Shown here one piece after another: positions 5,541 to 9,541 of a stretch of DNA of 64,000 nt. A model generated the notes under the pieces. The model did not search any database. It saw nothing but the letters and a program-made list of their open reading frames with translations, and was not told the DNA's origin. Numbering within the stretch: position 1 is the stretch's first letter; every line of letters starts with the position of its first letter. The position numbers and the translations under genes are program-made. The DNA lies in assembly GCF_003385215.1 (NCBI RefSeq), contig NZ_PQHW01000026.1:1-64000 (forward strand). Direction: 5' to 3'. Source of the stretch: Amycolatopsis thermalba. Its GTDB lineage: Bacteria; Actinomycetota; Actinomycetes; Mycobacteriales; Pseudonocardiaceae.

Positions 5541-5968
5541 TGTCCGACGAGAAGTACCTGCGGCGCGCGATCGAGCTGGCCGCCGAAGCCCGGGCCGCGG
5601 GCAACCCGCCCTTCGGCTCGCTGCTGGTCGGCCCCGACGGGCGGATCCTGGCCGAGGACCGCAACACCGCGATCACCGACCGGGACATCTCCGCGCACCC
5701 CGAGCAGAAACTGGCCCGCTGGGCGGCGCGTGAGCTGGACCCGGAGACGGCGGCGGGCACCACGATGTACACCAGCTGCCAGCCGTGCGGGATGTGCACG
5801 GGCGCGCTGGCGCGGTCCGGTCTCGGGCGGGTGGTCTTCGCCCTGTCGGGGGAGCAGCTGGAGAGCCTGAGGGAGCCGACCGCGCCGGTCGTGGTGCGGC
5901 CGGTGCCGCAGGAGGGCCCGTTCCTGTTCGACGAGGCGCGCGTGCCGGTGGACGGCTACTACCGCTGA
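5540..5968 (+). CDS. nucleoside/guanine deaminase-like protein (CMP/dCMP deaminase fold)
   Basis: A 142-residue zinc deaminase. The zinc-site signatures are HPE (in SAHPEQKLARWA, about residue 53) and PCGMC (in SCQPCGMCTGALARSG, about residue 81); the opening NPPFGSLLVGPDG is typical of the guanine deaminase-like group. The usual HAE is HPE here, which keeps the histidine and catalytic glutamate. The ATG overlaps the stop of the LLM gene by one base. The last ten bases overlap the convergent membrane-protein gene. Exact base substrate unknown. Confidence 0.85.
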   Translation: MSDEKYLRRAIELAAEARAAGNPPFGSLLVGPDGRILAEDRNTAITDRDISAHPEQKLARWAARELDPETAAGTTMYTSCQPCGMCTGALARSGLGRVVFALSGEQLESLREPTAPVVVRPVPQEGPFLFDEARVPVDGYYR

Positions 5969-7083
5969 CCGTCCGGAATGGAGCCGCTGGCGGGCTGGAA
6001 GGAGCGCACCAGCGCGGAATCCCGGTGCTCGGCGAGCGTGAGGGCGAATCCGACCTCGTCGGCCCACTCCTCGCCCGAGCAGTCCGCGCCCGGCGGGGGC
6101 GCCGCGCGCGGGGGTTCGCCGCGCTCCTTCGCCGCCTCCGCCAGGGGAAGCCAGCAGGCCGTGGCGAGGGCTTCGCTGCCCGCGTGGGCCCGGGCCGCCT
6201 CGATCGTGCCCGGGTCCACGTAGTCGCGCAGGACCAGGACCGCGTCACGGATCTCGATCACCCGGCGGTACAGCCGCAGGTCGCTGGCCCACCGGCCGCT
6301 CTCCGGCAGGTGGACCTGCGGCACCGCCGTCACCAGGCGGCGCCACAACGGTTCCAGGTGGCGCAGCGTCCGGCGGTCGCCCGCGGCCCGGTGCAGCCGC
6401 AGCAGCTGCGGCAGTGCCGTGCCCAGCGCCATGACCCACGCCGTGATCGCGACGTTGAGCGGGGCCGCCGCCCCCAGCCACGACGACCGGGTGACCAGGT
6501 AGGCGGGCACCACCAGGCCCCAGAAGACGGTCGAGGAGGCGAACCCGGTGGCGAGCACGTACAGGCCGGCCCGGAGCGGGCGGGTGGTGGCCCGCCGCCC
6601 GTAGCGGGCGCACAGGATCGCCGCGGGACCGGTGCCCAGCACGTGCGCGAGGCACAGCAGCGACCAGAACAGGCCGAACCACGGGACGTCGGCGGAGGTG
6701 AGGCAGGCCGGCTCGGGAGCGCCGGAGTTGATCAGCAGCAGCGCGGCGCTGACCAGGGCGGCACTGCCGTAGACCAGCAGCGGGCGGCGGCTGGCGGTGG
6801 CGGCCAGGACGAAGTCGAGGATGAGCGCGGAGCCGACGACGCCCCAGACGCTCACCACGATGCCGCAGCCGCCGCCCGGCCCGAAGGCGCGGTCGACCAG
6901 GCCGGCGACCGGTTCGAGGACGAGGGTGATCGAGGTGGCGAGGCTCGCGATCGCGATCAGCATGCGCCGCCGCGGGGGTGCCCGCCGGGCGGCGGGCGCG
7001 CGGATCACCAGCGTCACCCACAGCACGAGCGTCCCGGCGGCCAGGAGGTGCGTGCCGGCGCTCCCCAGCGCCGCGGGGCTCAC
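5959..7083 (-). CDS. MAB_1171c-type putative integral membrane protein
   Basis: A 374-residue protein with about seven hydrophobic segments in the first 240 residues and a soluble C-terminal part (LRLYRRVIEIRDAVLVLRDY) typical of the MAB_1171c putative transporter family. Members are usually found next to XRE regulators and ImmA/IrrE peptidases, exactly as here. It begins at a GTG 25 bases downstream of the ImmA gene. Function is not established; the family name 'transporter' is not proof of transport. It may be a membrane sensor or effector of the XRE/ImmA pair (inference). Confidence 0.75.
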   Translation of the reverse strand: MSPAALGSAGTHLLAAGTLVLWVTLVIRAPAARRAPPRRRMLIAIASLATSITLVLEPVAGLVDRAFGPGGGCGIVVSVWGVVGSALILDFVLAATASRRPLLVYGSAALVSAALLLINSGAPEPACLTSADVPWFGLFWSLLCLAHVLGTGPAAILCARYGRRATTRPLRAGLYVLATGFASSTVFWGLVVPAYLVTRSSWLGAAAPLNVAITAWVMALGTALPQLLRLHRAAGDRRTLRHLEPLWRRLVTAVPQVHLPESGRWASDLRLYRRVIEIRDAVLVLRDYVDPGTIEAARAHAGSEALATACWLPLAEAAKERGEPPRAAPPPGADCSGEEWADEVGFALTLAEHRDSALVRSFQPASGSIPDGQR

Positions 7084-7108: not shown

Positions 7109-7612
7109 TCACTCCCACGTTCCCCGCAGGCCGAGCGCGGTTTCGAACTCGCCGAGCGCCCCGGTCGTCGTCCAGGTCGCGCGGGCCTGCGCGGCGGTCC
7201 GGATGAGGCTGGCGACCAGCTCGGCCTCCTGCTCCTCCTCCGTGGTGTACCCGGTGCGGGTCAGCAGGCGCTCGATCAGCTCCGGCGACAGGTCCGGCAG
7301 CACCCGCGACAGCGGATGCCCCGTGCCGTCGCCGGTGTGGTCGCACAGCAGGTGGCCGATCTCGTGCAGCACGATGTGGTCGCGGTGCACCCGGCTCGTC
7401 TGCTCCTCGACGTAGATCACGTCCGCCGACGCCAGCCGGATCCACGCCCCGCACGCGGCGCCGCCGGACCCCGGCGGGAGCGTGCGCACGTGGATCGGGC
7501 GGCCGCGCCGCGCGGCGAGGGCGTCGACCAGCGCCGGCACCGAGAACGGCCGGGGCAGCGGCAGGCCGGCCACCAGGGCCTGGCACCGCCGCAGGTCGCG
7601 TCGCGTCACCAT
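7109..7612 (-). CDS. ImmA/IrrE-family metallo-endopeptidase
   Basis: A 167-residue zinc peptidase-like protein. The motif HEIGH lies about residue 82 (HIVLHEIGHLLCDHTGDG), with a downstream acidic helix (EEEQEAELVASLI) supplying the third ligand, as in ImmA/IrrE. ImmA cleaves its partner XRE repressor in ICEBs1; the adjacent XRE gene is a likely partner. The ATG at 7612 is favoured over a GTG at 7624 because GGAGGTG lies nine bases before the ATG. Confidence 0.85.
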   Translation of the reverse strand: MVTRRDLRRCQALVAGLPLPRPFSVPALVDALAARRGRPIHVRTLPPGSGGAACGAWIRLASADVIYVEEQTSRVHRDHIVLHEIGHLLCDHTGDGTGHPLSRVLPDLSPELIERLLTRTGYTTEEEQEAELVASLIRTAAQARATWTTTGALGEFETALGLRGTWE

Positions 7613-7669
7613 CGCTGCCGTCACCTCCGCTCGGGCGGGTCTGCGAGCGGGCGCGGCACCTGCCCCGGT

Positions 7670-8116
7670 CTACGCGCCCGGCTCGTCGTCCGGCTGCTCG
7701 GCCGGCGGCCCGAGCCGCTCGATCTTGCGGGCCTCGGTGACCATGGCCAGCAGCGCGTCCAGGGTATCGTCGGACAGCCCGTCCGCGCGCAGCGCGATCG
7801 ACCGGACCTTGTGGTTGCGCAGCGCCTGCGCCAGCTCGAGCTGGGCGTCCACGCGGGAGGTCACCGCGTCGTCGAGGAAGTAGTCGGGCGGCACGCCGAA
7901 GAACGCGGCGAGCGTGCCCAGCGTCTCCTGCGTCAGGTTGCGCTTGCGGCCGCTGGCCAGTTCCCACAGGTACGTGCTCGACAGGGTCGCCCCCGTGCGC
8001 TCGCGGATCTGCGCCGCCAGCTTCGCGTATCCGGGCCTGCCCTCGGGGTAGAGGGTGGTGATCAGGTGCGTGATCTTGGCGGCGAGCGAGCCGCCCTCCT
8101 GCCCGCCCTGGTCCAT
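7670..8116 (-). CDS. XRE-family transcriptional regulator
   Basis: A 148-residue protein with a lambda-repressor-type helix-turn-helix over about residues 12-75 (YAKLAAQIRERTGATLSSTYLWELASGRKRN, LGTLAAFFGVPPDYF). The C-terminal region (about 80-148) is helical and may be the cleavage or dimer part. The start at 8116 is preferred to an upstream one at 8173 because GAGGA lies six bases before it. It heads the XRE/ImmA/membrane-protein run, and its upstream inverted repeat also covers the promoter of a divergent small transcript. Confidence 0.88.
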   Translation of the reverse strand: MDQGGQEGGSLAAKITHLITTLYPEGRPGYAKLAAQIRERTGATLSSTYLWELASGRKRNLTQETLGTLAAFFGVPPDYFLDDAVTSRVDAQLELAQALRNHKVRSIALRADGLSDDTLDALLAMVTEARKIERLGPPAEQPDDEPGA

Positions 8117-8166
8117 GCGGTTCCTCGTGCTCGAAGGTGGTCGTCCGCTTCGGCGGACGGCAGTCA

Positions 8167-8194
8167 TTGTCAATCAGCCGCAGGCCGTTGACAA
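8167..8194. promoter_or_regulatory. inverted repeat, probable XRE operator
   Basis: TTGTCAA (8167-8173) and TTGACAA (8188-8194) are exact reverse complements separated by 14 bases. The site is about 50 bases upstream of the XRE start. The right half contains the TTGACA -35 element of the rightward promoter P1. XRE autorepression that also controls the divergent transcript is an inference from this overlap. Confidence 0.55.
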
Positions 8195-8218
8195 ACCGAG
8201 GTGTCCTGCACCTATTCT
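8188..8218 (+). promoter_or_regulatory. rightward promoter P1
   Basis: A consensus -35 TTGACA (8188-8193) is followed after 19 bases by TATTCT (8213-8218). The spacing is a little long. No gene with a ribosome site starts close behind it; an intrinsic terminator follows within 70 bases, suggesting a very short transcript. Confidence 0.5.
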
Positions 8219-8224
8219 GGCCCA

Positions 8225-8282
8225 GGTCATCCGCTACAGCGGATGCGCGGCCGGCGGGGCCTGGGGGCTCGCCGGCCTTTTT
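8225..8282 (+). ncRNA. candidate small RNA ending in an intrinsic terminator
   Basis: Downstream of P1 lie a small hairpin (ATCCGC/GCGGAT around 8229-8244) and then a strong GC hairpin with arms GGCCGGCG (8249-8256) and CGCCGGCC (8270-8277), followed directly by five T residues (8278-8282). A transcript from P1 would be about 58 bases with two stem-loops. No start codon with a ribosome site is seen inside. It could equally be an attenuator leader for the downstream oxidoreductase gene; start position is estimated. Confidence 0.4.
8249..8282 (+). terminator. Rho-independent terminator T1
   Basis: Eight-base perfect GC arms (8249-8256 and 8270-8277) with a 13-base loop and a T5 run. U-tract terminators are uncommon in such GC-rich DNA, which makes this one notable. 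Confidence 0.75.
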
Positions 8283-8326
8283 CGTGTCGAGATCCGTTCA
8301 GCCTGCACACCCCGCCCCGAAGCGGC

Positions 8327-8332
8327 TATGAT
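8327..8332 (+). promoter_or_regulatory. -10 element of second promoter P2
   Basis: TATGAT at 8327-8332 is a near-consensus -10, with TGCACA (8304-8309) 17 bases upstream as a weaker -35. Transcription would begin at about 8339, directly at the left arm of the next terminator hairpin. Confidence 0.35.
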
Positions 8333-8338
8333 GGTGGA

Positions 8339-8391
8339 GGCGTCGTTCTCCCAGTGACCCCCAGGCTGGTCGAGGACGACGCCCCTTTTTT
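8339..8391 (+). terminator. Rho-independent terminator T2
   Basis: Arms GGCGTCGT (8339-8346) and ACGACGCC (8376-8383) enclose a second internal stem (CCAG/CTGG) and are followed after two bases by six T residues (8386-8391). It is the second U-tract terminator in 110 bases. Confidence 0.7.
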
Positions 8392-8396
8392 GCGAC

Positions 8397-8425
8397 TTGA
8401 CTTATGTTCACGGTATGCATTAGAT
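8397..8425 (+). promoter_or_regulatory. promoter for the Gfo/Idh oxidoreductase gene
   Basis: TTGACT (8397-8402) and TTAGAT (8420-8425) are separated by exactly 17 bases in a locally AT-rich stretch, 40 bases before the GTG start. The -35 begins right after the T-run of terminator T2, insulating this gene from upstream transcription. Confidence 0.6.
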
Positions 8426-8464
8426 GATTTCAGTAGTGCAGAAGACCTGCTGACAGGGGGAGAA

Positions 8465-9541
8465 GTGAGCGAGCCGTTGCGGGCCGGGATCATCGGCGCC
8501 GGGTTCATCGGAGCCGTACACGCCCGTGCGGTGCGCACGCTGGGCCAGGACCTGGCCGCGGTGGCCGCGTCCACGCCCGCCCGCTCCCGCGCGGCGGCGG
8601 CCGAGCTGGGCGCCCGGTCGGCCGTGGACAGCGCGGAGGAGCTGGCCGCCGCCCCCGGCATCGACGTCGTGCACATCTGCACCCCGAACGCCCTGCACGC
8701 GCCGCTGACCCGCATCGCGCTGGACGCGGGCAAGCACGTCGTCCTGGAAAAGCCCGTCGGCATGAGCGGCGCCGAGGTCGCCGGCCTCGTCCGGCGGTGG
8801 CGCGACACCGACCGCGTGGTCGCCGTGCCGTTCGCCTACCGCTTCTACCCGGTGGTGCGCGAGGTGCGGGAGCGGGTGCGCGGCGAGCGGATCCGGCTGA
8901 TCCACGGCGTCTACCTGCAGGACTGGCTCTCCCGCGACAGCGACACGAACTGGCGGGTGCGGTCCGAGCTGGGCGGGCCGTCGCGCGCGTTCGGCGACAT
9001 CGGGGTGCACTGGTGCGATCTGGCGGAGTTCGTCACCGGACAGCGGATCGCGCGGGTGCACGCGGTGCTGCCGCGGGTCGTGCCGGTGCGGGCGGGCGCC
9101 GAGGTGGACACCGAGGACGCGGCGCTGCTGCAGTTCGAGACCGAGCAGGGCGTGTTCGGGTCGGCGGTGATCAGCCAGATCTCGCCGGGGCGGCGCAACC
9201 AGCTGCAGCTGCGGATCGACACCCCCGAGGTCGAGTACGCGTTCGACCAGCAGGAGCCGGAGATCCTGTGGATGGGCCGGCGCGACGAGACGCGGGTTCT
9301 GCACCGCGGCGACCCCGCCCTCGGCCCCGACGCGACGTCCCGCAACCTCGTCCCGGCCGGCCACCCGCAGGGCTACCTGGACTCCTTCACCGGCTTCATC
9401 GCCGACACCTACGCCACGATCCGCGGCGAGAAGCCCGAGGGCCTGCCGACGCTGGCCGACGGCGCCCGCGCCACGGCGATCACCGAGGCGGTCCTGAGCT
9501 CCGCCACGCGCCGCGACTGGGTGGAGGTCACGCCCGGCTGA
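8465..9541 (+). CDS. Gfo/Idh/MocA-family NAD(P)-dependent oxidoreductase
   Basis: A 358-residue sugar/inositol dehydrogenase-type enzyme. The N-terminal Rossmann fold shows GIIGAGFIGAVHARA (residue 8 on) and the family EKP motif (KHVVLEKPVG, about residue 95), with the C-terminal GFO/IDH substrate domain containing GDIGVHWCDL, whose histidine is the usual catalytic position. The GTG at 8465 follows GGGGGAG. The frame is open back to 8201 across two terminators, but that part has no family similarity. The ROK regulator 50 bases downstream suggests sugar catabolism. Confidence 0.88.
   Translation: MSEPLRAGIIGAGFIGAVHARAVRTLGQDLAAVAASTPARSRAAAAELGARSAVDSAEELAAAPGIDVVHICTPNALHAPLTRIALDAGKHVVLEKPVGMSGAEVAGLVRRWRDTDRVVAVPFAYRFYPVVREVRERVRGERIRLIHGVYLQDWLSRDSDTNWRVRSELGGPSRAFGDIGVHWCDLAEFVTGQRIARVHAVLPRVVPVRAGAEVDTEDAALLQFETEQGVFGSAVISQISPGRRNQLQLRIDTPEVEYAFDQQEPEILWMGRRDETRVLHRGDPALGPDATSRNLVPAGHPQGYLDSFTGFIADTYATIRGEKPEGLPTLADGARATAITEAVLSSATRRDWVEVTPG

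Follow-up and report, generated by a model that had tools for sequence, protein, structure and literature searches.

A predicted G-rich-loop RNA divergent from an EspR-like XRE regulator gene is a probable sponge for C-rich-loop small RNAs in Pseudonocardiaceae

What does an XRE regulator control when it is encoded with an ImmA-like protease and a MAB_1171c family membrane protein, and when very short RNA genes appear to lie across its promoter? No description of the role of XRE/ImmA-like/MAB_1171c loci was found in the literature searched. We analysed such a locus in a 64,000-nucleotide stretch of Amycolatopsis thermalba (contig NZ_PQHW01000026.1, positions 1 to 64,000; hereafter the window), in which an earlier note had marked two promoter-terminator units divergent from the trio, here called RNA1 and RNA2 (Table 1). 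We consider it probable, at roughly 0.6, that RNA1 is a stand-alone, XRE-controlled sponge for C-loop sRNAs that resembles RosA of Bacillus subtilis, because its loop is complementary to the C-rich loop of a widespread sRNA family to which RNA2 is predicted to belong.

Table 1. Genes and predicted elements of the locus (positions in the window)
Feature	Position	Strand	Basis or remark
MAB_1171c family membrane protein gene (DUF6545), third gene of the trio	5959..7083	-	NF042915 192.5 bits (cut-off 100); PF20182
ImmA/IrrE-like metalloprotease gene	7109..7624	-	HEIGH motif; PF06114 E 0.0036, below cut-off
EspR-like XRE (HTH) regulator gene	7670..8116	-	ortholog profile against EspR; HTH_3 E 0.0028, below cut-off
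Operator 1 candidate GTCCGCTTCGGCGGAC, xre side	8143..8158	.	one mismatch to RTCCGCTNNAGCGGAY
RNA1 -35 TTGACA	8188..8193	+	overlaps xre -35 of the opposite strand
RNA1 -10 TATTCT, spacer 19	8213..8218	+	TATTCT in 8/8 module-bearing congeners
RNA1, predicted ~58-nt G-loop sRNA, start inferred	8225..8282	+	promoter, terminator, conservation, stem covariation
Operator 2 candidate ATCCGCTACAGCGGAT, just 3' of RNA1 -10	8229..8244	.	perfect RTCCGCTNNAGCGGAY; strict pattern in 8/8 module-bearing congeners
RNA1 apical loop GCCUGGGGG	8259..8267	+	exact reverse complement of 8358-8366
RNA2 promoter TGCACA-17-TATGAT	8304..8332	+	TGCACA 8304-8309 likely -35, TATGAT 8327-8332; scanner-listed
RNA2, predicted ~53-nt C-loop sRNA, start inferred	8339..8391	+	model R1, 84.5 bits
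RNA2 loop segment CCCCCAGGC	8358..8366	+	complement of RNA1 loop
Gfo/Idh/MocA oxidoreductase gene, GTG start	8465..9541	+	PF01408; own conserved upstream block in alignment

The XRE protein matches that of Amycolatopsis deserti at 100% and that of A. tucumanensis at 97%, and 28 of 390 Pseudonocardiaceae genomes have an ortholog (E<=1e-40). A profile of 16 orthologs matches the structure of EspR from Mycobacterium tuberculosis (3qf3, positions 3-130 of 142, E 4.4e-20), so that the homology covers both the HTH and the C-terminal domains; unlike EspR, the XRE gene here is accompanied by an ImmA-like protease gene and is divergent to a predicted RNA gene. For the protease, 8 of 13 homologs match M78 (PF06114) at E<=0.01, which is weak support, and a profile search of the PDB returned no M78 chain and no relevant match. 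Of 14 named Pseudonocardiaceae loci, 11 have the ImmA and MAB genes downstream of xre and three (L153, L155 and L156) lack them. An HTH repressor encoded beside an HEXXH protease is the arrangement of ImmR/ImmA in ICEBs1 and of CapH/CapP. The XRE gene adjoins a gene for a putative ImmA-like protease with a HEIGH motif, and PADLOC, which was run on the trio only, gave weak matches to capH (E 2.2e-6) and capP (E 0.0024). An ImmR/ImmA-type system is also described for TnSmu1 (PMC10233336). In contrast to ICEBs1 and TnSmu1, no conjugation gene was found among the six window genes scanned, and the predicted output is an RNA; in contrast to CapH/CapP, those six genes include no CBASS gene that the pair could control.

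The anatomy proposed in the earlier note was borne out for both units. RNA1 ends in a GC-rich hairpin (8249-8277) followed by T5 (8278-8282), and its folding (z -2.85) was equalled by 1 of 200 dinucleotide shuffles; RNA2 ends in a hairpin (8339-8383) with T6 at 8386-8391, and none of 200 shuffles folded as well (z -4.68). A simple promoter scanner listed the xre and RNA2 promoters and missed that of RNA1, the spacer of which exceeds the scanner limit of 18, and a simple scan of the region listed zero terminators. The sequence elements for a predicted RNA1 promoter and terminator of its own are present and conserved. RNA1 is unlikely to be a leader or a small ORF, because 1-2 nt indels occur inside it among congeners and because it ends in a T tract in the window. 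At gathering thresholds, Rfam gave zero matches over the whole window (five matches on 8100-8480 were all sub-threshold and to unrelated families), and a tRNA scan of the window found no tRNA.

The two units differ in what they accompany. A blastn search of 41 genomes with 8118-8466 recovered the syntenic region in 8 other congeners, 2 of them partial. In the alignment of nine congener regions, RNA1 is kept in the 8 that have the trio, and RNA2 is kept in all 9 together with its -10 region and T tract. Among 19 congeners, an RNA1 model hits the same 8 that have an XRE ortholog and no others, although by kinship this amounts to about one event. One congener (G003) retains the order deaminase, RNA2, oxidoreductase and is missing both the trio and RNA1; therefore, RNA1 goes with the trio and RNA2 is independent of it. 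This rules out RNA2 as an obligate XRE target, and no match to RTCCGCTNNAGCGGAY within two mismatches was found near its promoter. Thus, very short predicted RNA genes are indeed kept beside homologous trios, and of the two units RNA1 alone accompanies the trio.

RNA2 is predicted to be an sRNA family that is absent from Rfam (no match at gathering for the four loci submitted) and independent of the trio. A covariance model built on 20 copies (R1) matches 19/19 congeners; in the family as a whole it matches 242 of 297 genomes, which represent 43 of 46 genera, and over 121 genomes drawn across the order it matches 16, the sole non-family match being weak (33 bits). By blastn, the RNA2 core occurs at a further locus in each of 19 genus genomes and in 4 genomes of other genera. 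The alignment (A2) holds 20 of 26 loci, the near-duplicates L002, L004, L005, L007, L018 and L019 having been dropped, and more divergent copies exist beyond these 20. Within it, 99.4% of cells are paired (0/500 shuffles), and both-side changes occur in 5 of 16 pairs, a number reached by 73/500 shuffles and so not clearly above chance. The core CUCCCRGUGACCCCCAGGCYGGUYGAG is constant in 19/20 rows and the outer stem is variable; the apical core CTCCCRGTGACCCCCAGGCYGGTYGAG is found in 19/20 rows, with GTAACC in the remaining one. The main copy has ald and/or an ABC ATPase gene alongside in all 19 congeners, and among the best-scoring loci of other genera (L061-L075 and L106-L111, n=21) the ABC gene is present in 21/21 and ald too in 15; neither gene lies within 1.5 kb of two Crossiella copies (L231 and L232). 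Upstream of the ald-linked copies (L031-L058), elements conserved by eye (GTGAAGAAGT.TTTC, GCGAA.TC and CTAAGCT) suggest a dedicated promoter of the main copy. Strain YIM PH 21723 (L177/L260) has 14 RNA2-type matches, some of them weak, two of which lie within ~5 kb of the xre locus.

RNA2 invites comparison with the 6C/B11 sRNAs, which according to PMC10470900 and PMC12395582 carry C-rich apical loops on GC hairpins, one of them in the terminator, and regulate by pairing these loops with G tracts of target leaders. RNA2 likewise carries a C-rich loop in its terminator hairpin. It differs from 6C (RF01066) in being a single hairpin between promoter and T tract rather than two hairpins, in its loop core GUGACCCCCAGGC, in not reaching the RF01066 gathering threshold, and in that most of these genomes also have a distinct gene for true 6C. 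The 6C sRNA was found in 16 of 19 congeners, with 15 scores above the cut-off; the match in the window's own genome is partial and lies where a contig ends. It was also found in 20/20 further genomes, of which G403 and G404 are apparently congeners again. Near position 1501 of L250 (Kutzneria viridogrisea) and L251 (Crossiella) lie two-hairpin, 6C-like RNAs with the loops ACCUCCCCCCUCG and GUGACCCCCAGGC, in which the RNA2 loop sits on a different stem and which score below gathering for Rfam 6C.

A relation that the earlier note did not contain links the two units: the apical loop of RNA1 (GCCUGGGGG) and the loop segment of RNA2 (CCCCCAGGC) are exact 9-nt reverse complements, with a predicted duplex energy of -20.0 kcal/mol. 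RNA1 is therefore complementary to the presumed pairing region of a predicted sRNA of the same cell, as a sponge should be. The same complementarity could be read otherwise, with RNA1 acting directly in trans on C-rich mRNAs or locally on the adjacent RNA2 alone. RNA2 does lie just 3' of RNA1 in the window's clade, in G046/G085 and at two loci of Actinokineospora. In Crossiella, Lentzea, Gandjariella and A. palatopharyngis, however, the ~420 nt examined around RNA1 contain no RNA2, which is located elsewhere in the genome, and we consider such a direct or local role unlikely.

Alternatively, the two hairpins could be plain intrinsic terminators or leaders, their loop match being a chance product of a GC-rich genome: the window has 72.9% GC and its intergenic stretch 61.3%, and the elements are short. 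The near-constant apical core of the 20 RNA2 copies and the synteny of the main copy with ald/ABC already speak against it, as does the behaviour of RNA1, the stems of which diverge with compensation around a constant loop. When the divergent regions of all 28 family XRE-ortholog loci were scored (G283 through its named counterpart L153, Amycolatopsis antarctica), a CCNGGGGG hairpin was present 3' of the operator in 21 by script tally, and another GGGGG loop took its place in 3 (G218 Lentzea, G024 YIM PH 21723 and G053 Kutzneria). No RNA1 hairpin was found in the divergent regions of G283, G044 and G486, the last of which has the trio and lacks the operator as well. G493 (L299), where the trio is present, has a CCGGGGGG hairpin upstream of xre and no operator; its RNA1 status is uncertain, and the hairpin is possibly a relic or variant of RNA1. 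Among the named loci without ImmA and MAB genes, RNA1 is absent in two and one carries the poorly fitting Kutzneria loop. In an alignment (A6) of 10 selected hairpins that share one simple register, which leaves out the Crossiella-type, Gandjariella, YIM PH 21723 and NBRC 105648 hairpins, both-side changes occur in 7 of 10 pairs and 96% of cells are paired, neither value being reached in 500 shuffles; the number of pair types in the same hairpins is not above shuffles (220/500). Of 654 strict hairpins at 15 XRE loci (perfect stem >=8 and loop 8-12, so that an RNA1 whose stem has a mismatch or whose loop is shorter or longer went uncounted), 12 carry GGGGG in the loop and 5 carry CCNGGGGG there, each of the latter being RNA1. 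These observations make chance a quite unlikely explanation. A model of RNA1 built on congeners only (R2) gave 8 strong and 29 weak matches over 297 genomes; among 15 of the 29 that were checked (L084-L098), 3 are RNA1 beside XRE and 12 are otherwise, and the CCTGGGGG hairpin-like stretches in L094 and L097 sit within long open frames. Upstream of xre in Actinokineospora iranica (L152), a second hairpin with a G-rich loop (GCGAGGGGGG) lies 3' of RNA1, and G046 may have one too.

Variation in the RNA1 loop bears on its choice of partner. In 12 of 14 loop rows (9 of 11 distinct), pairing with a consensus C-loop sRNA exceeded that of shuffled loops at p<0.02 each, the rows being non-independent and the partners being the consensus RNA2 and 6C loops rather than each genome's own; the Kutzneria (p 0.44) and YIM PH 21723 (p 0.10) loops failed. 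C-loop sRNAs may be read as CCCCC-N'-GG, N' being A in RNA2, U in 6C loop 2 and C in 6C loop 1, and the sponge would then be CC-N-GGGGG, switched between partners from lineage to lineage through one base. Typical 6C loops contain CCCCCCGG and CCCCCUGG, and some congeners have deviant ones. RNA1 loops with N=U fit RNA2 best (Amycolatopsis, A. palatopharyngis, Ak. iranica, G046/G085, Gandjariella and the Crossiella type), and those with N=A fit 6C loop 2 best (Actinokineospora xionganensis, G225, and Lentzea with a U-C-A variant); the loop of Actinokineospora sp. NBRC 105648 forms 13 pairs, one of them G-U, with 6C loop 1. The Amycolatopsis loop also pairs partly with 6C loops (7-8 pairs including G-U), and N alone discriminates little, as most choices would fit some C-loop sRNA. 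In G249 and G225, whose RNA1 carries N=A, RNA2 remains the same, so that the two RNAs do not covary on both sides. The tracking of resident C-loop partners by RNA1 variants is thus suggestive of a partner switch and falls short of proof, since the rows are non-independent and most N fit some C loop. We propose, tentatively and at somewhat less than even odds, a loop-to-loop code in Pseudonocardiaceae in which a G-loop sponge swaps its partner by one base and is driven by an EspR-like/ImmA-like/MAB_1171c switch; if the switch does drive the sponge, a protease-controlled repressor would therefore gate a family-wide sRNA network.

The G loop might instead anchor a protein or an RNA structure, its match to C loops being secondary. 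Conservation of the loop within the clade, and the Kutzneria, YIM PH 21723 and Lentzea variants, which keep GGGGG and not CC, would suit such an anchor, yet most variant loops fit some C-loop sRNA, and loci outside the family make this reading very unlikely. Among 21 of the 66 non-family XRE loci, examined in Streptomyces and relatives, the strict operator is present in 11, and CCNGGGGG is absent upstream of xre in 20, the exception (L175) being a self-palindrome with a 6-pair stem. RNA2 was matched in 14/14 Pseudonocardiaceae genomes with named XRE loci versus 1/21 of the other XRE genomes, and that single match (Planosporangium, 33 bits) is without the C loop. Among the loci examined, the G-loop RNA is thus seen only where the C-loop RNA2 family occurs. 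Most of the XRE orthologs at L161-L201 (mostly Streptomyces) have ImmA-like and MAB_1171c-like genes and often the same palindrome, and their xre apparently faces protein genes and not an RNA gene.

Which sequence would XRE recognize? The earlier note had named an inverted repeat, TTGTCAA-N14-TTGACAA, as the best operator. The repeat is present at 8167-8194 and holds the -35 element, as described; its right arm is this conserved -35, the left arm is not shared by the other seven module-bearing congeners, and among 300 loci an exact match occurs only in copies of this and the Gandjariella locus, so that we set it aside as the operator. The palindrome RTCCGCTNNAGCGGAY is the likelier candidate. 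It occurs at the RNA1 promoter in 8/8 module-bearing congeners. Beyond that promoter, G000 and G009 each have one further copy, and 3 of the 11 congeners lacking the module have a single copy; a reversed control gave none. In the window, 5 matches with at most two mismatches compare with 2.06 expected, a number reached by 5/100 shuffles. The strict pattern RTCCGC-N4-GYGGAY lies within ~430 nt upstream of xre at 24 of 28 family loci, with a looser form in G465 and none in G283, G486 and G493. At eight named family loci with two strict matches the spacing is 96-98 bp in seven and 90 bp in one; in the window it is 86 bp, about one helical turn below 97, and the pair flanks the back-to-back promoters. 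The operator 2 candidate also forms a small hairpin in RNA1. The window's genome has one more perfect copy of the operator, at G000:C2:52270, close to the end of an ORF. An ImmR/ImmA-like circuit in which XRE represses both RNAs through TTGTCAA-N14-TTGACAA, along the lines of the earlier note, would accord with the XRE and ImmA-like genes and with the repeat shared here and in Gandjariella, but is highly unlikely given the lack of conservation of the repeat elsewhere, the persistence of RNA2 without the trio in G003 and the RNA2 promoter without RTCCGCTNNAGCGGAY.

Taking RNA1 as a sponge, we envisage that the EspR-like XRE would repress it by binding the palindromes that lie at the promoters of RNA1 and of xre itself. 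By analogy with known repressor-protease pairs, inactivation of XRE by the neighbouring ImmA-like protease would allow RNA1 to be made, and the signal for this may come through the MAB_1171c membrane protein. The 9-nt G-rich loop of RNA1 would then pair loop-to-loop with the C-rich loops of RNA2-type sRNAs, both the adjacent and the ald-linked copies, and in some genomes may pair with 6C; such pairing would remove C-loop sRNAs from their targets, presumably mRNAs with G-rich leaders as for 6C/B11.

The closest functional analogue is RosA of B. subtilis, with which RsaI of Staphylococcus aureus is grouped as the same sponge type. According to PMC8216469, RosA is a stand-alone RNA of ~229 nt under the transcriptional repressor CcpA, with three G-rich regions, two of them predicted to be single-stranded, that pair with C-rich regions of several sRNAs. 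RNA1 is similar in being predicted to be stand-alone, G-rich and repressor-controlled, and differs in its length of ~58 nt, its single G tract in a hairpin loop, its occurrence in actinomycetes and its position beside EspR-like XRE and ImmA-like genes. If our reading is correct, RNA1 would be, to our knowledge, the first actinomycete sponge RNA directed at C-loop sRNAs; none was found among the best open-access literature matches, which is weak evidence of absence, and a Saccharopolyspora sRNA paper (PMC3827479) contains none of the terms looked for. It would also add an Rfam-absent sRNA family found in most Pseudonocardiaceae genomes searched, and would give XRE/ImmA-like/MAB_1171c loci a concrete output. 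The control of 6C-type C-loop sRNAs would thereby become directly testable, with natural loop variants available for the study of partner choice.

The gene 3' of the two units has features of its own. An AT-rich block (8397-8440) before the oxidoreductase gene is largely kept in the nine aligned congeners and is probably its promoter and operator. Directly before the GTG start, the leader reads CAGGGGGAG (8454-8462); because CAGGGGG complements CCCCCUG of 6C loop 2, this leader is a possible 6C target.
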